Made by a program: the position numbers and the translations under genes. The notes beneath the pieces were generated by a model, which saw only the letters and a program-made list of their open reading frames with translations, did no database searches and was not told where the DNA came from. Below, piece by piece: positions 27,834 to 42,416 of a stretch of DNA of 64,000 nucleotides (position 1 is its first letter; each line of letters opens with the position of its first letter). The stretch comes from Haloarcula mannanilytica. Its GTDB lineage: Archaea > Halobacteriota > Halobacteria > Halobacteriales > Haloarculaceae. The DNA is taken from contig NZ_BIXZ01000004.1 of assembly GCF_005406125.1 (NCBI RefSeq), positions 186,001 through 250,000 on the forward strand, given 5' to 3'.

Positions 27834-28232
27834 ATGCGTCTCGAACTGCGAATCTGTAAACACTGCTATGAGGGCGATCACGGCAACGCCGAGAAGACCG
27901 CCGTGACACAGGACATGGTCGCCTGCGCCGAACAGGTCCGGGAGTACAAGGACCTCATCGGACTCGACGCGCTCTATATCACCAGAGTTGAGGAGGGCGA
28001 CCCCGGCGGTGCGGAGGCACTTGATGTCATCGTCGCCAGCATTCAGGGCGATCAGGTTGCCCTTTCGGACACGCAACTGGTCATGGAGGACGGCGACGGC
28101 AACATGCTCGTGTATCCGGAGCCGAAAGACATTCTCAAGGTCCTGACACGGAACCTGAACCAGATTCAAGAGCAGACCCGGCAGGATGTTGATGTCGAAC
28201 TCTCGCCGGAAGGGCAGGCGCTGATCGCGTAG
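27834..28232 (+). CDS. Unknown protein with N-terminal CxxC
   Basis: 132 residues, soluble and acidic. It begins MRLELRICKHCYEGDHGN with a CxxC pair at residues 8 and 11, and a third Cys near residue 31 (MVACAEQV). The rest is alpha/beta (LDVIVASIQGDQVAL, ILKVLTRNLNQIQEQ) with no motif I recognise. It could be a metal- or thiol-using accessory protein. It is convergent with the formate dehydrogenase operon, and a strong hairpin precedes its start. Confidence 0.65.
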   Translation: MRLELRICKHCYEGDHGNAEKTAVTQDMVACAEQVREYKDLIGLDALYITRVEEGDPGGAEALDVIVASIQGDQVALSDTQLVMEDGDGNMLVYPEPKDILKVLTRNLNQIQEQTRQDVDVELSPEGQALIA

Positions 28233-28263: not shown

Positions 28264-29307
28264 TCAGTTCTCAGTGTCGTCTGATTCAGGCTGGCCGCCG
28301 TCGGTCTGAGGTTCGCCCCCGTCGGCCGCGGCCGGCGGTTCCCGTTCCTCTTCCAACTGCTGTTCCCAGCGGATGCGCAGGACGTTCCCGTACATCGACA
28401 GCACGAGACCGACCCCCAAGACGACCATCCCAAGGTTGATGCCGATGGTCAGCAGGATGCTCGATGGCCCGCCGCCGATTGCCAGTTCACGCGGCACCGG
28501 ATACCCCTCGTCGAAGATGCTCCCGATGAGCACCGAGACGATGCCGATGACGGTCATCGCACCGAAGATGGTCGACACAGACCGCCACGACGGCGACAGC
28601 GAGAGTCGTTCGATACCCGTGGTGTCCGGTTCCTCGTCGTCCTCGCTGTGGTGTTCCGGGACCATGCTGCGGGGGATGAACGCCTTCGTCTCGACAGGGT
28701 AGAAGGCGGGGTGCATCCCGTGTTCGAAGACGTGGAACATGACCCCCATCAGCATGATCACGCCCAGCAGGCCGTGGAACGTGACGAAGGCCATCGCGGC
28801 CGCCTTGGTCTGGAACATCGCAGCGAGTCCGGTCTTGCTCCAGATGAGCAGCCCCGAGATCGCAAGCAGGGTCAGCTCGATGGAGAAGATCGCCACGACG
28901 CCCTTGCCGATGTAGGACAGCAGCGGGACCTCGTCGGCCTTGTAGCCCGCGAACTGCCGCGCGCTCGGGTGGCGCTCGTCGGCCCGCCCCAGCACGAACT
29001 GGATGTCCTGGATGAAGGCGTCGATGTCGTCTTTCGCGGGGAGGATCTTCGAGAAGTTGCTCCGGCCGGTCGAGGAGATCAACTGCAGGGTAATCCAGAA
29101 GACGACGAGCGCGACCAGCCCGATGCCAGTGATACGGTGGATCGCCGTCACGCCCGAGGCCCCGCCCATCAGCGTCAGCATCCACCACAGCTCGTCGTTG
29201 AACATGATGGCGTAGCCGGTAAAAAACAGCAGGAACACGTCAAGCCCCAGCAGCGAGTGGAACAGGGTCGTCACGCGCGTGAACTTCCCGTGGTCGAGAT
29301 TGCTCAT
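28264..29307 (-). CDS. Formate dehydrogenase cytochrome b subunit (gamma)
   Basis: 347 residues. Four or more helices of the FdnI/cytochrome b561 type hold the likely heme histidines in TLFHSLLGLDVFLLF, AIHRITGIG and TFHGLLGVIMLMGVMFHVFEHG. An extra pair of C-terminal helices and an acidic tail (residues 315-347) make it longer than FdnI (about 217). It would anchor the exported catalytic subunits and pass electrons to the quinone pool. It is last in the four-gene operon, overlapping the preceding gene by four bases (ATGA). Confidence 0.82.
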   Translation of the reverse strand: MSNLDHGKFTRVTTLFHSLLGLDVFLLFFTGYAIMFNDELWWMLTLMGGASGVTAIHRITGIGLVALVVFWITLQLISSTGRSNFSKILPAKDDIDAFIQDIQFVLGRADERHPSARQFAGYKADEVPLLSYIGKGVVAIFSIELTLLAISGLLIWSKTGLAAMFQTKAAAMAFVTFHGLLGVIMLMGVMFHVFEHGMHPAFYPVETKAFIPRSMVPEHHSEDDEEPDTTGIERLSLSPSWRSVSTIFGAMTVIGIVSVLIGSIFDEGYPVPRELAIGGGPSSILLTIGINLGMVVLGVGLVLSMYGNVLRIRWEQQLEEEREPPAAADGGEPQTDGGQPESDDTEN

Positions 29308-29714
29308 GCGCTATCACCGCCCTGTCCGTCACCGCCGGTCGGCGAGCCGCCGTCGGCCGCGACGGCTTCGCTGACATCCTCGCCCGGATCACGCATCTGG
29401 CCGGCGAGGCGCTGGAACGCCGCCCAGTGGATGAACACCATCACGAGAATGAACGCGCCCATGATAACGTCGGCCGCGTGGATGAGCGCGATGAGGAAAT
29501 CGAGTGCGGGGATGGTGTTCCCGAATACCCAGTCCGAGCCGATGCCGCCGCCCTCGACGCTCGGGTTGACACGGTACAGCGACTCGTAGCCGACTCGAAA
29601 GCCCTGTGCCCAGAACAGCGACAGCCCCGCGACGGCGAGGCCGACGACTGCGCTGATGAGCACTGAGGCGCGACTGTACCCGTTTACGTCCGGTAAGTCA
29701 TCCCTGTCTGTCAT
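29304..29714 (-). CDS. Membrane subunit of the formate dehydrogenase operon
   Basis: 136 residues with two hydrophobic helices, ASVLISAVVGLAVAGLSLFWA near residue 20 and ALDFLIALIHAADVIMGAFILVMVFIHW near residue 80. Histidines (LIALIHAADV, VFIHWAA) could bind heme, which is speculative. The tail is Gly/Asp-rich. It overlaps both neighbours by four bases (ATGA each side), so it is surely part of the complex or its assembly. I do not recognise a named family. Confidence 0.65.
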   Translation of the reverse strand: MTDRDDLPDVNGYSRASVLISAVVGLAVAGLSLFWAQGFRVGYESLYRVNPSVEGGGIGSDWVFGNTIPALDFLIALIHAADVIMGAFILVMVFIHWAAFQRLAGQMRDPGEDVSEAVAADGGSPTGGDGQGGDSA

Positions 29715-30373
29715 TGGAACTCACTGGCGTCCTCGCCAAAGATGATGTCCATGGCCACGTCGTTGAAGAACGTGCCGCTGTCCCTGTTGTCCAGTTCGTC
29801 GGAGATCTGGGCGGGCGTCCCGACCAGAATGGCGTCGGTGGCACACTCCTCGGCGCAGGCCGGTCCCTTGCCGACATCCTGGCGTTCCTCGCACATGGTA
29901 CACTTGTCCATGTTGCCACCGCTACCGACCAGGTTGGCGACTCCATCATCCTCGTTGGGGAACTGTGGCGCACCGAAGGGGCACGCCGAGAGGCAGTACT
30001 GACAGCCGATACAGAGGTCGTCACGAACACGGACGAACCCGTTCTCCTTCGAGATGAGCGAGTCGGTCGGACACACCGAGACACACGGCGCGTTCGAGCA
30101 GTGATAACACTGCATCGGCACCGCGGTCTCGCCGGGTGACTCACCCTGTTCCATCGCCTTGCCGCTGCTGGCGTTGAGCCCGGACGCGGCTTCCTGGCCT
30201 TCGAGCATCGTCGCGATGCTGATTCGCTGTTCGTCGCGTGGAACGTCCCACGTTCGCTTACAGGAGACGACACAACCGCCACAGTCGATGCACGCTTCGA
30301 CATCCGGGAAGATACGCGCGTCCTCGCCGGTACTCATCACGCCGTCGTGCATTACTTCGTTACCTGTTGACAT
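29711..30373 (-). CDS. Formate dehydrogenase iron-sulfur subunit (beta)
   Basis: 220 residues with four cysteine groups for four [4Fe-4S] clusters: CIDCGGCVVSCKRTW, CYHCSNAPCVSVCP, CIGCQYCLSACPFGAP and CTMCEERQDV...CAEECATD. This is the DmsB/FdnH-type electron-transfer subunit between the molybdenum subunit and the cytochrome b. It lacks the C-terminal anchoring helix of FdnH; the two downstream membrane proteins could replace it. It starts 11 bases after the alpha subunit stop. Confidence 0.9.
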   Translation of the reverse strand: MSTGNEVMHDGVMSTGEDARIFPDVEACIDCGGCVVSCKRTWDVPRDEQRISIATMLEGQEAASGLNASSGKAMEQGESPGETAVPMQCYHCSNAPCVSVCPTDSLISKENGFVRVRDDLCIGCQYCLSACPFGAPQFPNEDDGVANLVGSGGNMDKCTMCEERQDVGKGPACAEECATDAILVGTPAQISDELDNRDSGTFFNDVAMDIIFGEDASEFQ

Positions 30374-30384
30374 GCTAGTTCACC

Positions 30385-33300
30385 TTATTGTACCGTCGAG
30401 TTGTCGCGGACATCGAAGTCCTTCTGTGTCCCGATGTCCTGTTCGTCCTGCGGGAACGTGATATCGAGGTCCACGTCGATGTTGTATCGGTCCAGGACCT
30501 CCGGCGTCGCCGGGTTGACCGCGACCATCGACACCTTCGTCTCCTGCATCTGGGTCTCCACATCGTACCCGCGGGATGTGATGGCGTTGGCCGAGTCCCC
30601 GATAGCGTAGGGGACGTGGCCGTCGGGATAGCTGTCTTCCAGGCTCTCGCCTTTGAACACGCCGCCCCAGTGGTAGGGGAGGAACACCTCGCGGTCGTTC
30701 GGCCGGTCCGTGACCCGTGCCTTGACGAGTACGGAGCCACGGTCCGTCGAGGAGATGACGATGAGGTCACCCCCGTCGATACCGAGTTCGTCGGCCTTGT
30801 TCGGCGAAACCTCCGCGTACATATGCGGTTGCAGGTCGGCGGTGTGGATGTTGTTCCGCGTCTCCGCTCCGCCGCCCTGGTGTTCGACCTGCCGGCCGCT
30901 GGTCATTATCGTATCCAGGTCCGGCCCCTCGTCCTGGTTGTGGATGATGTCCGTCGCCCGTTCCTGCTCGACGAGGTTGTTCTGGTCGAGCCGGTAGAAG
31001 TTCCGCTGCTGGCCGTTTGCGGGCCACTCTGACAGCAGCTCCGTATCCGGCCCCTCGATGGGTTCGCGGTGAATCGGCACCTTGTCGAGGAAGCTCCAGA
31101 CGACGGCCCGCGCCCGGCCGCGCCCGGTCGGCGCGTCGGGCTGGCTGTAGTCGTACTCCTCGTAGAACTCGGGGTCGACCCCCTCGCCGATCATCGTTTC
31201 GAGGTACTCGTCGAACACCGGGCTTCCGGTGTCGGGATTATTCAGCGCCTGTGCGGCGGTGTAGACCGACTCCTGATTGTCGAGCGCGTACTGCTGTGGA
31301 ATCGTCAGTTCGTCCGGCTGGACCTCCTGTTCGGGGTCGATGAGGCTCTGTGGCGGTGTCACTTTCCAGCCCGGATACTCCGGGATACCGTGGATCATGC
31401 CGTCCTCGGCCGTGTCGTCGTCGTCGGCCCACTCGGGGTTGTACGGCGCACGCGTCAGGTCCAGGGCCTCCTCCTGGCTCTCGTACCGGTCGCCGACGGC
31501 GTCGAGTGTCTCCTGCATCGGGTACTCGTCGTCGGTCGGCATGCCGTCCCAGTCCTCGGGCGTGGGTGCCGAGACACCCCAGCGGGTCCGGAAGTCCTGA
31601 CCCCCGTTGTTGGGGTCCATGTCGTCGTTCCAGATGATGGGCGTACCCGGATGGTCCTCGCCCCAGCAGGGCCAGGGGAGCATCCAGTACTCGCCCGCGA
31701 CGGGCGTCCCTTCGGCTCCCTTGAGGTCTTCGTTGGAGAACGCCCAGTCGTACTCCAGGTGCTGCTGGAGCCGTTCGGGGGTCTGTCGGTAGCCAATGGT
31801 GTTGGTCCCGAGGTTGAATTCCCGGACGACGCCCTCATACGAGGACTTGCCGTTGTAGAGCTCCGAGCCCGCGCCCCAGTCGAAGTGCTCGCCGAAACCG
31901 AGGTGGCCGGCCAGTTCCTGCATGATCTGCAGGTCAGGTTTGGAGTTGTGGGCCGGCGAGCGGACCGGTTCGGACCACTGCACCGACCGGTTCGTGTTCG
32001 TCAGCGACCGGTGGTGCTCGTACTGGCTGGACGCCGGCAACAGCAGCACCGGCGGCCCCTCCTCGTAGTTGGGGAGGACGCTGGCGACCGAGGGGAACAC
32101 GTCGATGACGACCAGCAGGTCGAGGTTCTCCATCCCCTCTTTCATCTGCTCCATCTCGCTGATGGAGTTCGCCGAGTGCCCCCAGAAGAACGCGATTTTC
32201 GTCTGGTCGGGCTGGTAAATCGGTGTCTCCTGGTAGCGGTCCTCCTGGCCCAGCGCCGATTCGAACCAGCGGGCGACGGTGAGCCCGTTCTGGAACATCA
32301 TCGAGTTCTCCGCCGGGTTGTCCGGACTGTGGTCCGAGTTCGGTGGCAATGAGTCCGCGTCCTCGTTGCCCTCGTACACCGGGCTCTGGCGGACGTACTT
32401 GTCCGGCGGCATCAGCTCGAACCGATTGTACATGTCCGCGAACGAGGTGTCGCCGCTGGTTTCGGGCGTCTGGTCCCAGATTTCGGCCCACCACGACCAC
32501 CCGCCGGCCGTGAGGCCGTAGTAGCCCGGTAGGATGTGGCTCGCGACCGCGAGGTCGGTCGCCCCCTGGACGTTCGCGTGCCCGCGCATGACCTGTAGGC
32601 CGCCGCCGCTCCGGGCCGCGCTCCCGGAGGCCAGGCTCGCCATCGCGTACGAGCGGATGTTCTGGGTCCCGTTGTTGTGCTGGGTCCCGCCCATCGCCCA
32701 CTCGATCTGGATGTGGGGCCGGGCCTCGTCGATCATGTCGGCGATGCGTTCGATGTCCTCGGCGGACACCCAGGTAATCTCCTCGACGGTCTCCTTGTCG
32801 TACTGGTCGAGTTCCGCGTCGACATCTTCCCAGCCCTGGACGCGGTCGGTGAGCATGTTCTGCCCGCTCTCGTCCGCGTCGGGGTCCATCGCGAGCCCGT
32901 GCTTGTCGCGGAGTTCCTTGATGATGCCCATCATCAGGGCCACGTCGGTTCCCGGACGGAACCGCATGAACTCGTCGGCGTGAGCCGACGTTTTGGTAAA
33001 GCGCGGGTCCAGATTGAGGATGGTCCCGCCGCGTTTCTGCCCTTCGAGGATGTGCTGCATCGCAATCGGGTGTGCCTCGGCGGGGTTCTGGCCGATGATG
33101 ATGTTCAGGTCGAAGTTCCGGTAGTCCTGAACCGTGTTTGTCATCGCGCCGTAGCCCCAGGTGTTTGCCAGCCCCGTCACCGTAGTCGAGTGGCAAATCC
33201 GCGCCTGGTGGTCGATGTTGTTCGTGCCCATGAACGCCGCCAGCTTCCGGATGGCGTAGGACTCCTCGTTGGAGTGGTGGGCACTGCCCAGCAACATCAC

Positions 33301-33786
33301 GCTCTCGCGGCTGTGTTCCTCGTCGACATCGACGGCGTCGTCCGGCGAAACGTCGGAGTCGGGCCACAGCGCCTGGATGTCGGTCGACAGGCGGTCGTAG
33401 GCCTCGTTCCAGCCGAGCTTGCGCCACTCCCCGTCCTCCTGTATCATCGGATGCTTCAGGCGCTTCTCGGAGTGTTCCGTCTCGTAGATGCCGGCTCCCT
33501 TTGAACACAGCGACCCGGCATTTATTGGGTGTTCATGCCACGGCTCCATGCCGACGAAAGAGTTGCCTTCCTTCTCGCCGCGGAAGCCACAGCCCACCGA
33601 ACAGTAGTTACAAATCGTCTTTGTCAGTTCGGTGTCCGTGTCTGTGCCGTCCGTTTCCTCACCGCCTTCCTGGAGTGCCTGACCGGCCCCGCTGACGCCG
33701 AGGGCGACGCCCCCCGCGAGTGCGCTCGCTTTCATAAACGAGCGCCGGTCCAGGTCCAGTGAGACTGGTTCCTGTTGTGTACTCAT
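30385..33786 (-). CDS. Formate dehydrogenase catalytic subunit (alpha), Tat-exported
   Basis: 1133 residues from MSTQQEPVSLDLDRRSFMKA. A twin-arginine signal lies in the first 40 residues. The N-terminal [4Fe-4S] site is C59, C62, C66 and C94. The molybdenum ligand is C198 followed by H199 (ARICHSTT), where FDH-N has selenocysteine-histidine, so this is a Cys-type formate dehydrogenase. The C-terminal molybdopterin-binding barrel is present (PHMYAEVSPNKADELG). It oxidises formate outside the membrane and sends electrons through beta and gamma. The ATG at 33831 is rejected because the Tat signal fits this start better. Confidence 0.88.
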   Translation of the reverse strand: MSTQQEPVSLDLDRRSFMKASALAGGVALGVSGAGQALQEGGEETDGTDTDTELTKTICNYCSVGCGFRGEKEGNSFVGMEPWHEHPINAGSLCSKGAGIYETEHSEKRLKHPMIQEDGEWRKLGWNEAYDRLSTDIQALWPDSDVSPDDAVDVDEEHSRESVMLLGSAHHSNEESYAIRKLAAFMGTNNIDHQARICHSTTVTGLANTWGYGAMTNTVQDYRNFDLNIIIGQNPAEAHPIAMQHILEGQKRGGTILNLDPRFTKTSAHADEFMRFRPGTDVALMMGIIKELRDKHGLAMDPDADESGQNMLTDRVQGWEDVDAELDQYDKETVEEITWVSAEDIERIADMIDEARPHIQIEWAMGGTQHNNGTQNIRSYAMASLASGSAARSGGGLQVMRGHANVQGATDLAVASHILPGYYGLTAGGWSWWAEIWDQTPETSGDTSFADMYNRFELMPPDKYVRQSPVYEGNEDADSLPPNSDHSPDNPAENSMMFQNGLTVARWFESALGQEDRYQETPIYQPDQTKIAFFWGHSANSISEMEQMKEGMENLDLLVVIDVFPSVASVLPNYEEGPPVLLLPASSQYEHHRSLTNTNRSVQWSEPVRSPAHNSKPDLQIMQELAGHLGFGEHFDWGAGSELYNGKSSYEGVVREFNLGTNTIGYRQTPERLQQHLEYDWAFSNEDLKGAEGTPVAGEYWMLPWPCWGEDHPGTPIIWNDDMDPNNGGQDFRTRWGVSAPTPEDWDGMPTDDEYPMQETLDAVGDRYESQEEALDLTRAPYNPEWADDDDTAEDGMIHGIPEYPGWKVTPPQSLIDPEQEVQPDELTIPQQYALDNQESVYTAAQALNNPDTGSPVFDEYLETMIGEGVDPEFYEEYDYSQPDAPTGRGRARAVVWSFLDKVPIHREPIEGPDTELLSEWPANGQQRNFYRLDQNNLVEQERATDIIHNQDEGPDLDTIMTSGRQVEHQGGGAETRNNIHTADLQPHMYAEVSPNKADELGIDGGDLIVISSTDRGSVLVKARVTDRPNDREVFLPYHWGGVFKGESLEDSYPDGHVPYAIGDSANAITSRGYDVETQMQETKVSMVAVNPATPEVLDRYNIDVDLDITFPQDEQDIGTQKDFDVRDNSTVQ

Positions 33787-33894
33787 GGTGAATGGTGCCC
33801 ACCCATTACCGGTGCTGTCCACGTTGGCCACGCAGTTTGGTCTGTCATTGTCTGTCGATACCTAACTGACATTCGGAGTCATCCATGATAAAAG

Positions 33895-34019: not shown

Positions 34020-36155
34020 ATGAACACGGGCGCCTTCGTGTGTTCCTGTGGTGGATCGTGCGACATCGACCTCGAAGCGGTTCGGGACGGTGTTGACGAC
34101 GTTGAGGTCGTGGCCAGTTCCGAACTGCTCTGCCAGGACGGCCTGGCAGGGATGTCAAAGGTCATCGAGGAGTACGACCTCGATCAGGTCATCGCCACGA
34201 CGCCGGACCCGTCGTGTCAGGACCGCATCCGCGGGCTGGCCGACGAACACGACCTCCATCCCGAGGCGTCGGTGTTCGTCGACCACCGGGAAACCAACGC
34301 CTGGGTCCACGACGAGGCGGCGGCCACCGACAAGACGGCCCGCCTCATCAACGCAAAGGAGGCCGGGCTGCGCGAGGAAGCCCCGTCACGGACGGTGTCG
34401 AAGGACGCGGGCAACCGCGTTGCCGTCGTGGGCGACCCCGGTGCGGCCCGGTCGCTGACCGACGACGCCGACGTGACGTTCATCGCTGACGGCCGGGATT
34501 TCGCCGACGTAGAGGGCCTGGGCGACGTACGGATGGAACGGGGCCGCGTCGTCGACATCGACGGCTCCTACGGCGAATACGAACTCACGCTGGAGGCCCG
34601 CGTCACCGACGACTGCATCGACTGCATGGACTGTGTTCGAGAAGGCCCCGACGGGATGGTGACCGAGTTCCCCGTTGATATCCACCCGGACGCGCCCGAC
34701 GGCGAGTGGACGGACACGTGTCCGACCGATGCTATCGACCTGGACGGCGTCACCCGCACCGTCGAGGTAGATCAGGTCATCTATCCCGGCGGCCGCGACG
34801 ACGCCCGCGGCGGCCGGCTCGGTTTCTACACCGGGCCGGTCGACGCCGGGACCATCGCCGCCGTCGAATCGCAACTCGGTGGCATCGAGAAACCGCAGTT
34901 CCTCGACCTCGACATGGATGTCTGTGCCGCCGGCGCGTCCAGCCAGGAGGGGTGTACGGCCTGCGTGGACGCCTGTCCCCACGGCGCGGTCGACCGGCCG
35001 ACCATCGACTCCGTCGAGTTCGACGAGACCGCTTGCGAGAACTGCGGTGCCTGTACGAGTTCCTGCCCGACCGGCGCGACACAGCTCCGCGAACCCTCGA
35101 ACCGACGGCTCGCCCGCGAGGTCGAGGCGATGCTTGAAGACGATTCGGACGGGGGGTTGCTCTCGCGGAGCGACAGCAGGGGTATCGAGACCCAGGTCGT
35201 CGCGTTTGTCTGCTCGGAGTACGCCGCGGAACGGCTCCGAGCGCACGGACGCAAAGCCGTCCAGTCGGGCGACCTCGACTACCCGCCGATTCTCCCGGTC
35301 CACGTCAACTGCACGGATACGGTCGGCGAGGCCCACGTCATGCACGCGCTCGCCGCTGGCGCGGACGGCGTCGCCATCGTCGGCTGTGGCGGCTCCTGTC
35401 TCCACTCCGGCCCGGACCCCAAACAGGACCTCGTCGACCGGCTCAATCAGGCGACGACTGATCTGGGCCTTGGCGACCGCGTTGGCTTCTTCGCGCCCGA
35501 GGCCGGCAACCCCGAAGCCTTCGTCGAATCGCTGTCCGGTTTTGTCGAGTTCGGGTTAGACGAGACGCCGATTCCGGCCGGCGACTACGAGGCGACCGGT
35601 CGCAGCGACACCGACCGCGAAGAACCTCGCCCGAATCCGGATTTCGACAGCCACGGCTGGACCTTGGAGAGCGTCCGAACCATCCTCGACCACGTCGAGC
35701 CCGAGCGCGAGGTGATTCGCGGGCTGAAGGACTTCGGCGTCATGTCGGTCAACGACGCGTGTACGCTGACACCGACCTGTACGAACCTCTGTCCGACCGA
35801 CGCCATCAAGCGGACCGGGCAGGGCGAACTCGCCTTCAACCACGCGGACTGCGTGAACTGCGGCCTCTGTGAGGAGGGCTGCCCGGAGACGGCGATTACG
35901 ATGCACGACGGGCTGGACCTCTCCCTGCTCCCCGAGAACCGCGACGGCGAGGCCTGGACGACGGTCCACGAGGGCGACATGCTCGAATGCGTCCGCTGTG
36001 GCAAACCCTTCACCAGCGTCGCCTCAGCCGACAAAATCGAGGAGGAGGTCGGCGATCAGGTGGAGGGGCTGGCCCCCGACGCCGACCACTCAGTCTTCGA
36101 GTACTGTAGCGACTGTCGGAGTCGCTTGCTGTTCGACCAGGGGGAGAAGCGATGA
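34020..36155 (+). CDS. HdrA-N/ferredoxin/MvhD fusion electron-transfer protein
   Basis: 711 residues. The N-terminus (FVCSCGGSCDIDLEAV, then ETNAWVHDEAAATDKTARL) matches the N-terminal HdrA domain of heterodisulfide reductases. HdrA's large FAD domain is reduced to roughly 60 residues with a weak VAVVGDPGAARSL loop. Then come ferredoxin clusters (CTACVDACP, CENCGACTSSCP), an MvhD domain (VAFVCSEYAAERL, NCTDTVGEAHVMHALAAGADGVAIVGC), another ferredoxin (CTNLCP, CVNCGLCEEGCP) and a final CVRC...CSDC zinc-like pair. MvhD links Hdr to hydrogenase or formate dehydrogenase in methanogens. It is co-transcribed with a TorD chaperone and divergent from fdh. Confidence 0.85.
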   Translation: MNTGAFVCSCGGSCDIDLEAVRDGVDDVEVVASSELLCQDGLAGMSKVIEEYDLDQVIATTPDPSCQDRIRGLADEHDLHPEASVFVDHRETNAWVHDEAAATDKTARLINAKEAGLREEAPSRTVSKDAGNRVAVVGDPGAARSLTDDADVTFIADGRDFADVEGLGDVRMERGRVVDIDGSYGEYELTLEARVTDDCIDCMDCVREGPDGMVTEFPVDIHPDAPDGEWTDTCPTDAIDLDGVTRTVEVDQVIYPGGRDDARGGRLGFYTGPVDAGTIAAVESQLGGIEKPQFLDLDMDVCAAGASSQEGCTACVDACPHGAVDRPTIDSVEFDETACENCGACTSSCPTGATQLREPSNRRLAREVEAMLEDDSDGGLLSRSDSRGIETQVVAFVCSEYAAERLRAHGRKAVQSGDLDYPPILPVHVNCTDTVGEAHVMHALAAGADGVAIVGCGGSCLHSGPDPKQDLVDRLNQATTDLGLGDRVGFFAPEAGNPEAFVESLSGFVEFGLDETPIPAGDYEATGRSDTDREEPRPNPDFDSHGWTLESVRTILDHVEPEREVIRGLKDFGVMSVNDACTLTPTCTNLCPTDAIKRTGQGELAFNHADCVNCGLCEEGCPETAITMHDGLDLSLLPENRDGEAWTTVHEGDMLECVRCGKPFTSVASADKIEEEVGDQVEGLAPDADHSVFEYCSDCRSRLLFDQGEKR

Positions 36156-37533: not shown

Positions 37534-38751
37534 ATGACTTCGCGCCGTGGGCTGTTGCTCCGACTCTCCACGCTTACCGGGGCTGCGGGTCTCAGCGGCT
37601 GTTCGTCCCTGCTGGCCAGACAGGCGGTGTCGCCGACCGGTGACCTCGACCCCAACCCACGAGCCGACGAACTACCGATGCGTCAGCACGCCTGGAACGA
37701 CGCTCTGCGACGGGACGACGCCGACAACGAACTGCTGCCACGTCACTTCCGGCTCTACATGCTCGACCTCGACGTGTCGCCGTCGGACTCGGCCGCGGAG
37801 ACAGTCGAACTCGCGATGCGAACGCTCGAAGACGCCTACGAGTTCAACAGCGAGGGACTCCTGCACATGCTCGGTTGGGGGACGAGCTACTTCGACACGC
37901 ACGGCTCGCTCGACGCGTCGCCGATACGCAGCCCCCGCGTTCTCTCCCGGACGGACGACCCCGACCTGCAGGCCTTCGACGCGATACTAGTGCTCGCAAG
38001 CGACGTTCCCTCTCAGCTCGCGGCCGCCGAATCGGCGATGTTCGACACGCGGCCGACGCTCGCGGGCGCGGACGTGCAGGGGCGACTCGGGAACGTGTTC
38101 TCTGTCGCCGACCGCCGCGGAGGGTTCATCGGCGAGGGACTGCCCGCGGCCCACGCCGACGCCGAGGGCGTGCCCTCGACCATCCCCGAATCGGCCCCGA
38201 TGTTCTCGGGCTTCTTTTCCGGCCGCTCGGGGTCACAGGCCAGCGAGGACCGCGTTACCATCTCGGACGGCCCCCACGCCGGCGGGACGACGATGCACCT
38301 CTCGCGGCTGAACGAGTCCTTCGACAACTGGTGGGAGCTCGCCCAGTCCGAGCGCGTCCAACGGATGTTCTCGGCAGAGTTCTCCCAGGAAGACATTGAT
38401 AGGGGTGACCTCCCCTTCGCTGACATGGTCCGCGAACACGCAAGCGAGGACGGACAGGTCGGCCACTGGGAGAAGGTCGCCCGCGCCCGCAAAGACGGGG
38501 AGCCGATCATTCTTCGCCGGGATTTCAACACGGTCGATGGCGGCCAGGCCGGGATTCACTTCCTCTCGCTGCAGGCCCACCTCGGGGACTTCGAGGCGAC
38601 CCGCGACGCCATGAACGGCTGGTGGCTCCGCGAGGAACACGAGGACCTGCGCGACCGCCAGAACAACGGCCTGTTGGAGTTTATCGAGGTCGTAACGCGT
38701 GCAAATTTCTACGTCCCACCGCGGGACAAGCGGGCGTTCCCGAGCACGTAG
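37534..38751 (+). CDS. DyP-type peroxidase-like Tat lipoprotein
   Basis: 405 residues. The N-terminus has twin arginines (MTSRRGLLLRLST) and a lipobox ending LSGC near residue 24, so it is exported and lipid-anchored. The C-terminal half follows the dye-decolourising peroxidase fold: GTTMHLSRLNESFDNWWEL, DMVREHASEDGQVGHW (a likely heme-ligand His region) and ILRRDFNTVDGGQAGIHFLSLQ. The usual distal G-x2-D-G motif is instead GFFSGRSGSQ. It may be a peroxidase-like redox protein or a non-catalytic relative. It is preceded by a divergent operon of small membrane proteins. Confidence 0.7.
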   Translation: MTSRRGLLLRLSTLTGAAGLSGCSSLLARQAVSPTGDLDPNPRADELPMRQHAWNDALRRDDADNELLPRHFRLYMLDLDVSPSDSAAETVELAMRTLEDAYEFNSEGLLHMLGWGTSYFDTHGSLDASPIRSPRVLSRTDDPDLQAFDAILVLASDVPSQLAAAESAMFDTRPTLAGADVQGRLGNVFSVADRRGGFIGEGLPAAHADAEGVPSTIPESAPMFSGFFSGRSGSQASEDRVTISDGPHAGGTTMHLSRLNESFDNWWELAQSERVQRMFSAEFSQEDIDRGDLPFADMVREHASEDGQVGHWEKVARARKDGEPIILRRDFNTVDGGQAGIHFLSLQAHLGDFEATRDAMNGWWLREEHEDLRDRQNNGLLEFIEVVTRANFYVPPRDKRAFPST

Positions 38752-39775: not shown

Positions 39776-40561
39776 TTATTCCTCGGCGAGCTCCCAGTCG
39801 GCCTTCTCGGCGGCGTCCGAGAGCGGAATGAACTCCCACCCCGTCCGTTCGGCGATGGGCTCGTCGTCGGGGCGGCCGACCAGCACCATCCGCTCGGCGT
39901 AGAACATCGAGTGCTCGTCGATGTCGGCCAGCCGCTCGGCCGGTTCCTGGCCCGCGCCGCTGAAGAAGTCGGCGTCGATACCGTGGTCGCGCTGGAACTT
40001 GTTGATGACGAAGGCATCAACGTCGCCGACGATACCGACCCAGTCGGCCCACGCCCGCGCCTCCTGAAAGACCCGCTGTGGGTCGGCGAACTGCCGGGCC
40101 GCGTCGTAGGTCACCGCCATCGTCATATCGTCGATGCCGCCGCCGTGGGGGCCGCTCGCCTCGACGGACTTTTCGCCGGCAGCGGGGTCCTCGGCCACGT
40201 TCGAGGCCGGGTCGGTGTCGGTCGCGGCCGCGCCACCCGCGCCGCCGCTGTCCGTCGGGATGCCGACCGGCTTGTCCTTGTTCTCTCTGGGAACGTGCGG
40301 GACCGACTGGTCGCTGGGGTCCGCGCTGGCAGTGTCCGGTCCATCCTCCGCGATACCGGTATCCCCATCAGTACCCGTACCTGTGGCCGTAGCCGACCCG
40401 TTATTCTCGGCCTCAGCGTCGCTGTCGGGCCGAACCGATACAGTCCCGGGCTCCGGCTCATCTTCCGGATCACCTTCCCCGCTCCAGAACCAGTCGCCCC
40501 GGTTCGGCGTCTCTTCGTCGTTCTGTACGTCGAGTTCATCGAGGTCGATTTGGTCTGTCAT
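39776..40561 (-). CDS. Acidic protein coupled to the AOR-like gene (DUF7124-like)
   Basis: 261 residues. The first 145 residues are low-complexity and rich in Asp, Glu, Gly and Ala, likely disordered (DELDVQNDEETPNRGDWFW). A folded C-terminal part follows: MAVTYDAARQFADPQRVFQEA, WVGIVGDVDAFVINKFQRDHG and SMFYAERMVLVGRP. No catalytic motif is recognised. It starts on the last bases of the AOR-like gene (ATGA), so it is probably a partner of that enzyme. The family name is from memory. Confidence 0.62.
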   Translation of the reverse strand: MTDQIDLDELDVQNDEETPNRGDWFWSGEGDPEDEPEPGTVSVRPDSDAEAENNGSATATGTGTDGDTGIAEDGPDTASADPSDQSVPHVPRENKDKPVGIPTDSGGAGGAAATDTDPASNVAEDPAAGEKSVEASGPHGGGIDDMTMAVTYDAARQFADPQRVFQEARAWADWVGIVGDVDAFVINKFQRDHGIDADFFSGAGQEPAERLADIDEHSMFYAERMVLVGRPDDEPIAERTGWEFIPLSDAAEKADWELAEE

Positions 40562-42327
40562 TCTCCCAGTGTCGTGTCCGCTGGTCGTGTCGCCCCGTCG
40601 ACGGCGTCCGCGAGGCCGAGCCGTTCGATTGTCTCGCGGGTGGGTCGGCCGTCCGCGTCCCAGCCCCGCTGGCTGTAGTACTCGTCGAGCATCGCGTCGA
40701 AGGACTCGGTGTCGATTGCCGCGCCCGCATTCGGCCCCGAATCGAGGGGTTCCCGGAGCTTCGCCGGGAGTTCGTCGTCGGCTCGCGATACGCCTTCGCG
40801 GACGTTGAACAACCGCGTCAGGTTCCACACCCGTTCGCCGACCGTCGCGAGGTCGCCGTCCGTGTCTAGACCGACGGCGTCGAGCCACTCCGCGCCGAGA
40901 TCGTCGAAGGCGTCGCCGACGAAGTCATCGACGACAAGACACCACAGCACCGAGCGCTGGTCCTGCTCTCGGATGACGGCCGCGGCCGCCCGCTCGGGGC
41001 TCCAGTCGCCGTCGAAGGCCTCCCGCTCGATTGTGAGGGCGCGTCGGTGACAGGCTCCGCGGTCGCTGGTCGCGTACGCCAGCGCCATGCTCCGCGCTCC
41101 GCGGGGGTCGTACGCGGGCAGTTCCATCGCCTTGACCGTCGGCAGGAGGTCGTCCCCGCCAAGACGGGCCGAGGCCGCGTCGACGCCGTCGGCCAGGGCG
41201 TCCCCGAGCGTCGTCTCCCGCGTGACGATCTCGTTCAGCAGCGCCCGCGCGTCGTCGGGGCTTCCGTAATCGAGCGATTCCTCCAGTAGGCCGGCGTCAC
41301 CGGCTTTGATTGCCCACGCGACAGCGCTCCCGGCGCTGATGAGGTCGAGGCCGAGTCGGTTGCACGTCTCGCCCAGCGCCGCCACGGCGTCGAAATCGTC
41401 GATGCCGAGGCCGGCCCCGAGGCTCATCGCCGTCGCGCCCCGCGGAATGGTTTCGCCGTCCTCCGTCTCGACGCGAAAGCCGCCGGGGCTGCCCTCGTCG
41501 TCGTACTCCCGGCCCGCGGCGAGTTCTTGGACGGCCTCTATGCCGACGCCGTCGGCTCCCTCGAACTGACCGTCTTCCCAGCCCCGCGTCGAGAGCGCGC
41601 CGACCTCGTTGGCGAAATCGACCGTTTCGACGGTCCCGCTGGCGTGGAGCCACTGGCCGGTGTCGCCCTCGCGGTACCGCTGTGCGTACTGTTCCCGCAG
41701 CTCCGCGAGGTCCGTCGGCGGGTCGCCGCGGACGACGACGGCTTTCAGCCGCTTTGCACCCATCACCGACCCGGCACCGCCCCGGCCGGCGTGGTGTTCG
41801 CCACCGTCTGAGGCGATAGTCGCGAACGCGACCCCCTGCTCGCCCGCGGGGCCGATACACGCTACCGAAGCATCGGGAAACGCCGCCGCGGTTTCGGCGG
41901 TGTCCTGCCCCCACGTCTCGGTCGGTTCGACCGTCGCGCCGTCGTCCTCGACGACGAGTTCGACCGGCTCCGAGGCGCGGCCGGTGACCAGAATTCCGAT
42001 GTGGTCCTGCAGCGCGCCGGCCAGCGTGTCCGGGAACGTCCCGCCCGCGTAGGAATCGAGGAAGCCGCCGGTCAGCGGCGACTTCGTGACCGCGGCGTAG
42101 CGCGTCTCGCCGGGCAGGAGTCCGGAGACCGGCCCGAGCATGAACAGCAGGACGTTCTCGGGACCCAGCGGGTCGGTTCCAGCGTCGAGTTCGTCGTACA
42201 GGTACCGAGCGCCGAGTCCCTTGCCGCCCACGAACCGCTGACGCCACTGCCCCGGGACCGGACGGCTCTCGACCGACGCCGACGACAGGTCGACGCGCAG
42301 TATCCGGTCCCGATTGGCTACTGTCAT
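40558..42327 (-). CDS. Aldehyde ferredoxin oxidoreductase homologue without the usual cluster cysteines
   Basis: 589 residues from MTVANRDRILRVDLSS. Domain 1 motifs of tungsten/molybdopterin AORs are present: FVGGKGLGARYLY, GETRYAAVTKSPLTGGF, CIGPAGEQGVAFATI, GRGGAGSVMGAKRLKAV and NRLGLDLISAGSAVAW. Where AORs carry the C-x2-C-x3-C cluster motif, residues 271-284 read AGREYDDEGSPGGF. Only four cysteines exist (about 157, 322, 426, 463). The pterin-binding frame is therefore kept, but the [4Fe-4S] site is apparently lost. It is co-transcribed with the acidic protein downstream and lies among cofactor genes. Substrate unknown. Confidence 0.85.
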   Translation of the reverse strand: MTVANRDRILRVDLSSASVESRPVPGQWRQRFVGGKGLGARYLYDELDAGTDPLGPENVLLFMLGPVSGLLPGETRYAAVTKSPLTGGFLDSYAGGTFPDTLAGALQDHIGILVTGRASEPVELVVEDDGATVEPTETWGQDTAETAAAFPDASVACIGPAGEQGVAFATIASDGGEHHAGRGGAGSVMGAKRLKAVVVRGDPPTDLAELREQYAQRYREGDTGQWLHASGTVETVDFANEVGALSTRGWEDGQFEGADGVGIEAVQELAAGREYDDEGSPGGFRVETEDGETIPRGATAMSLGAGLGIDDFDAVAALGETCNRLGLDLISAGSAVAWAIKAGDAGLLEESLDYGSPDDARALLNEIVTRETTLGDALADGVDAASARLGGDDLLPTVKAMELPAYDPRGARSMALAYATSDRGACHRRALTIEREAFDGDWSPERAAAAVIREQDQRSVLWCLVVDDFVGDAFDDLGAEWLDAVGLDTDGDLATVGERVWNLTRLFNVREGVSRADDELPAKLREPLDSGPNAGAAIDTESFDAMLDEYYSQRGWDADGRPTRETIERLGLADAVDGATRPADTTLGE

Positions 42328-42416
42328 CACCACCCACTCCGCCGTCGGTCGACTAAAGGATTATCCCCATCAATCATGCACGAAGCACCTTTCTGCCAGA
42401 CACGAGAAGCCGGGGT

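Follow-up and report, generated by a model that had tools for sequence, protein, structure and literature searches.

The open reading frame at positions 34020 to 36155 (plus strand) of the window, the 64,000-nucleotide stretch of Haloarcula mannanilytica DNA that was analyzed, is a real gene. It encodes a 711-residue cytosolic iron-sulfur protein with 32 cysteines, here called HM, whose sequence revealed no signal peptide, Tat signal, or transmembrane segment. Domain comparisons make a derivative of an HdrA-MvhD fusion the best explanation for this protein, one that would have lost the bifurcating flavin domain and that carries a HycF-like tail. HM is probably a cytosolic redox maturation partner of the chaperone TorD for Tat-exported molybdoenzymes, chiefly formate dehydrogenase (FDH) of the FDH3 type. 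Within the genus, 13 other genomes encode a protein with 94 to 96% identity to it (95 to 96% in the named Haloarcula records); in other haloarchaea the identity is about 51 to 77%.

The original prediction described a single chain joining an HdrA N-terminal domain, ferredoxin, MvhD, a further ferredoxin, and a CxxC pair, and matches to Pfam, NCBIfam, and the PDB located every one of these parts. Their order is HdrA N-domain, vestigial FAD fold, ferredoxin, MvhD-like domain, second ferredoxin, and CxxC...CxxC. The N-terminal domain (residues 1 to 125; 34020 to 34394) contains C8, C10, C14, C38, and C66 and has the fold of the N-terminal Fe-S domain of HdrA; residues 2 to 139 match the HdrA model NF041778, and residues 3 to 145 match the PDB HdrA 9sfi. 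HdrA-type models of NCBIfam span residues 2 to 139 and 308 to 509, and the PDB sequence search returned HdrA for the N-domain and the central ferredoxin and HycF for residues 581 to 701. With an AlphaFold2 model (pLDDT 82, pTM 0.76), computed from an input without plasmid-derived rows, Foldseek gave HdrA as the top match (E 3e-18), followed by HycF and MvhD, and VIA-align matched HdrA with a Z score of 16.6 over residues 1 to 373. VIA-align also paired residues 1 to 120 with periplasmic binding proteins and with riboflavin synthase, matches that were taken as common alpha/beta arrangements.

The flavin site of HM is lost. For this comparison HM was aligned with complete HdrA-MvhD fusions from other archaea; relative to the complete fusion, about 246 residues, most of the flavin domain among them, are absent, and in one complete homologue (L141) the stretches that HM lacks are residues 173 to 198, 264 to 283, 328 to 370, and 390 to 546. 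Neither GxGxxG nor the CSIC/GG loop that follows the second strand is present, and, judged by position, E356 and K409, the residues for bifurcation as numbered in PMC12054007, would lie in the missing stretches. Structure and alignment show what is left to be the core of the fold (residues 129 to 290; 34404 to 34889), which is non-contiguous and split by a small inserted single-cluster ferredoxin remnant, identified by alignment (C199, C202, C205, and C234; 34605 to 34739) and variable among relatives. Residues ∼131 to 288 superpose on ∼103 to 113 residues of the FAD domains of thioredoxin reductase and lipoamide dehydrogenase (Z of ∼7 to 8, rmsd of 2.6 to 2.9; VIA-align). The structure prediction thus contains a core only and no full FAD-binding fold. 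The loss of the FAD domain that had been proposed is real, and its proposed size, about 60 residues, has to be revised, since the remnant comprises ∼110 superposable residues and not 60 contiguous ones. A deep-branching archaeal HM (L121) still has GGGAVG, which suggests that HM decayed from a genuine HdrA.

HdrA proteins are the top relatives of HM in both sequence and structure. With HdrA2 (type Ia HdrA), the HdrA-MvhD fusion of methanogens and ANME (NF040770; PMC12054007), it shares the order of N-domain, FAD fold with inserted ferredoxin, ferredoxin, and MvhD. It differs from HdrA2 by the missing flavin-binding/bifurcation region, by an additional C-terminal ferredoxin and CxxC pair, and by its partners, which are TorD and an exported molybdoenzyme and not HdrB.

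The cysteines of HM are conserved to different degrees. Those of the central two-cluster ferredoxin (residues 300 to 356; 34917 to 35087; Pfam and alignment), namely, C302, C312, C315, C319, C339, C342, C345, and C349, are invariant from bacteria to haloarchaea, as are C581, C587, C591, C611, C614, C617, and C621 of the C-terminal ferredoxin (residues 573 to 630; 35736 to 35909; Pfam and alignment) and the pairs C657/C660 and C696/C699 of the CxxC...CxxC metal site (residues 655 to 700; 35982 to 36119). In haloarchaeal classes A to C, the first motif of the C-terminal ferredoxin reads CTLTPTC and not CTLCxxC, one cysteine being replaced, and this ferredoxin may possibly hold one [3Fe-4S] and one [4Fe-4S] cluster. 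Models and structure show that this ferredoxin and the metal site together resemble HycF, subunit 6 of formate hydrogenlyase (PDB 7z0s/7z0t; Foldseek E 1.5e-6; residues 571 to 707); the resemblance covers the tail of HM only, and HycF is an electron conduit within a membrane complex. The MvhD/FlpD-like domain (residues 393 to 510; 35196 to 35549) matches PF02662 with an E value of 3e-17 and 63 bits against a cut-off of 22.3, and its TM-score against the PDB MvhD 5odc_D is 0.66 by target; it is the single FlpD/MvhD occurrence in the genome. It contains C398, C431, C456, and C460. Of the five [2Fe-2S] cysteines of HdrA2-type MvhD, four are kept in Haloarcula HM and in haloarchaeal classes A to C, whereas the MvhD cysteines are absent from class D and from the bacterial relatives, including the 4Fe-4S proteins of proteobacterial FDH3 operons. 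Annotation of haloarchaeal HM genes as “hydrogenase iron-sulfur subunit” should be avoided.

In the window, the start codon of a TorD/NarJ-type chaperone (PF02613; 36152 to 36778, plus strand) overlaps the stop codon of HM (ATGA). Divergent from these two genes on the minus strand lie fdhA (30385 to 33831; Pfam, NCBIfam, and Tat motif), encoding an FDH3-like catalytic subunit, fdhB (29711 to 30373; Pfam and NCBIfam), encoding an FDH3 beta-type 4Fe-4S subunit, the gene for a small membrane subunit of the FDH operon (29304 to 29714), and fdhC (28264 to 29307), encoding a cytochrome b membrane anchor (PF01292). The locus therefore has the traits of the FDH3 type: an FdhA with a Tat signal, an FDH3-like FdhB, and a membrane cytochrome b. 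The active-site Cys-His of FdhA (ICHSTT) is invariant in the FdhA alignment, and comparison with relatives makes the internal ATG at ∼33786 a likelier start than the GTG at 33831.

Two further genes accompany the cluster. The first (27834 to 28232, plus strand) encodes a conserved 132-residue CKxC protein, recognized by sequence comparison as a companion of haloarchaeal FDH/HM loci, with an invariant CxxC (C8 and C11), no match to a Pfam or NCBIfam family, and a poor structure model (pLDDT 55). Its group at ≥65% identity lies within FDH-bearing haloarchaea of classes A and B, and a paralogue group at 38 to 56% identity lies mostly outside them. The second, at 37534 to 38751, is often present in the haloarchaeal cluster; its product, a member of DUF7405 (Dyp-peroxidase-like), has a Tat/lipobox-like N terminus.

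In the window, FdhA carries a Tat signal (LDRRSFMKASALAGGVALG). Of 81 FdhA-type open reading frames, 76 have an RR Tat motif, and the other five are incomplete or belong to an unlinked cytosolic FDH. The Psr/Phs-like enzymes that replace FDH beside HM carry the motif as well. A related haloarchaeal FDH was described as membrane bound and peripherally oriented (PMC5437934), and exported membrane-bound FDHs were reported for ANME-1 genomes (PMC9012536), which are likely the setting of some deep archaeal HM loci. The export signal and the puzzle raised in the original prediction, a cytosolic protein beside an enzyme that leaves the cytosol, are thus both genuine, and the puzzle is general to the HM family.

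HM and the exported FDH occur together in two domains of life. Among 292 Halobacteria genomes, HM was found in 80 and FdhA in 78 (FdhA at E ≤ 1e-100; HM matches well above the ferredoxin background), with both in 77, so that only 1 FdhA genome is without HM and 3 HM genomes are without FdhA. Counted by genus (77 in all), 30 have both, 1 has FdhA only, and 3 have HM only (Fisher p 7e-17), although kinship inflates such counts. The pairing of HM, FdhA, and TorD nevertheless recurs in distant groups. Of 20 loci in other Halobacteriota, 19 place TorD no more than 50 bp from HM, as do most haloarchaeal loci; an FDH3-type FdhA is in the stretch in 17, two of the remaining three being contig ends. 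In seven annotated loci on proteobacterial plasmids, HM lies inside an FDH3 operon with TorD, usually with DUF3305/DUF3306 and often with MobA, MoeA, or FdhD nearby. These plasmid proteins are homologous to HM along most of its length and share the operon context of the 4Fe-4S protein of proteobacterial torD-fdhGHI (FDH3) operons, a gene whose annotation goes no further than “fer4” or “4Fe-4S binding protein.” It is listed as “fer4” by Bay et al. (PMC4464133), and in Shewanella, SO_4506, which from gene order would be the HM orthologue, is listed as “iron-sulfur cluster-binding protein” beside the chaperone FdhT (PMC5826389). None of the papers found reports a function for either the proteobacterial or the haloarchaeal protein.

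In a minority of loci, those of Natronorubrum bangense, where NrfD is annotated, and of three others (L044, L045, and L047), HM stands with TorD and a Psr/Phs/Arr-like molybdoenzyme with its Fe-S subunit in place of FDH. Formate is therefore not the common denominator; an exported molybdoenzyme together with TorD is. One HM (G160, L046) lacks both of these neighbors. Class B haloarchaea (L048, L049, L075, L078, and others) carry FdhA, and TorD where it was seen, in the same region at a greater distance; TorD is kilobases from HM in these loci and in several alphaproteobacteria. Some genomes have a further FdhA locus without HM nearby, and one haloarchaeon (G129) has FdhA, FdhB, and TorD and no HM, which shows that HM is not strictly required.

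Because HM is cytosolic and yet consistently associated with a chaperone and with an enzyme destined for export, it would most simply act before that export takes place. We propose that, within the cytosol, HM and the co-encoded TorD would act on the FdhA(B) precursor and that HM would pass electrons to or from the precursor's Mo/W cofactor and proximal clusters before Tat export, either as a reductive activation or as a redox check of cofactor loading. The mature FDH would then send formate electrons to quinone via FdhB and FdhC with no involvement of HM, and the clients in general would be Tat-exported bis-pyranopterin molybdo- or tungsto-enzymes. That FdhB and FdhC already provide a membrane electron path counts in favor of maturation. 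A precedent is given by HydN and YsaA of Escherichia coli, ferredoxin-like proteins that contact FDH-H and are needed for its full dye-linked activity (PMC6004506). The likeness, ferredoxin-like proteins tuning FDH activity, is drawn by description. Against the maturation reading stand the haloarchaeon without HM, the additional FdhA loci, and the distant TorD genes noted above; HydN and YsaA, moreover, can equally be read as electron-transfer subunits, and a long Fe-S relay is unusual in a maturation factor. HydN and YsaA are also much smaller than HM and, to our knowledge, lack HdrA and MvhD parts.

It is unlikely that HM instead works like HdrA/MvhD in methanogens, or BamE/F with the AOR-family BamB, as a cytosolic hub that carries electrons from FDH or an AOR-like enzyme to a soluble acceptor. 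HM does keep the HdrA and MvhD folds, and an AOR-family gene is near it in many haloarchaeal loci; in three genomes that gene follows HM directly and its product has the cluster cysteines. Against this, the linked FDH is exported, the flavin site is gone, and the MvhD cysteines are lost in bacteria and class D. A profile search detected no complete HdrA in the Haloarcula genome, and no HdrB partner was found there (best match 22.5 bits against a 345-bit cut-off), so that a methanogen-like Hdr/Mvh hub is not supported. The AOR-like protein proposed as another partner (40558 to 42333, minus strand; Pfam), loosely linked in the window, has none of the four cysteine ligands of its [4Fe-4S] cluster, neither the three in CxxCxxxC nor the fourth, and the same is true of the class A and B relatives compared; these cysteines are kept only in class D AORs, directly after HM. 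AOR is present in 163 of the 292 genomes, twice the range of HM, and was not seen in the bacterial and other archaeal HM loci. It was therefore rejected as a dedicated electron partner. At three loci (L041 to L043), an AOR gene with cluster cysteines directly follows the gene for a short HM variant whose N-domain and MvhD cysteines are degenerate.

Very improbable is a cytosolic pool of FDH, active before or without export, for which HM would be an alternative small subunit taking its electrons. HydN and YsaA of E. coli have such a relation to FDH-H (PMC6004506), yet almost every linked FdhA has kept the Tat motif, as have the Psr/Phs-like replacements, a membrane anchor is encoded with FDH, and the related haloarchaeal enzyme was described as membrane bound (PMC5437934). 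The many clusters, the four-cysteine tail, and the absence of a catalytic site could fit a redox or metal sensor regulating TorD-dependent assembly or expression, which we regard as scarcely probable, as a Pfam search of HM found no DNA-binding or signaling domain.

The maturation of haloarchaeal FDHs apparently also differs in another component. FdhD, described as essential for the FDHs of E. coli (PMC6239281), had no PF02634 match in the 292 haloarchaeal genomes (G007 and G000 included), among them the 78 with FDH3-type FdhA; a TIGR00129 search agreed, and a relaxed search (E ≤ 5) in 13 haloarchaeal genomes returned only sub-threshold noise. Among 17 genomes of other archaea that were searched, 16 scored above the cut-off. 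HM was also considered as a substitute for FdhE, but the comparison was uninformative because all 15 genomes examined gave no FdhE. Halodesulfurarchaeum formicicum HSR6 is a formate-oxidizing haloarchaeon (PMC5437934), and judging from these searches haloarchaeal FDHs apparently mature without FdhD, although a very divergent FdhD may exist. HM is not a simple FdhD substitute, since the two coexist in other archaea.

More tentatively, HM may represent a widespread and so far unrecognized class of redox maturation proteins, a flavin-free relay derived from HdrA that would reductively activate Tat-exported Mo/W enzymes and, in haloarchaea, provide an FDH route without FdhD. If this is true, a protein with HdrA and MvhD parts need not be an energy-coupling hub, and the topological paradox would be settled for the whole family. 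With maturation before export, the Fe-S gene of torD-fdh operons, hitherto unexplained, would also gain a function that can be tested.
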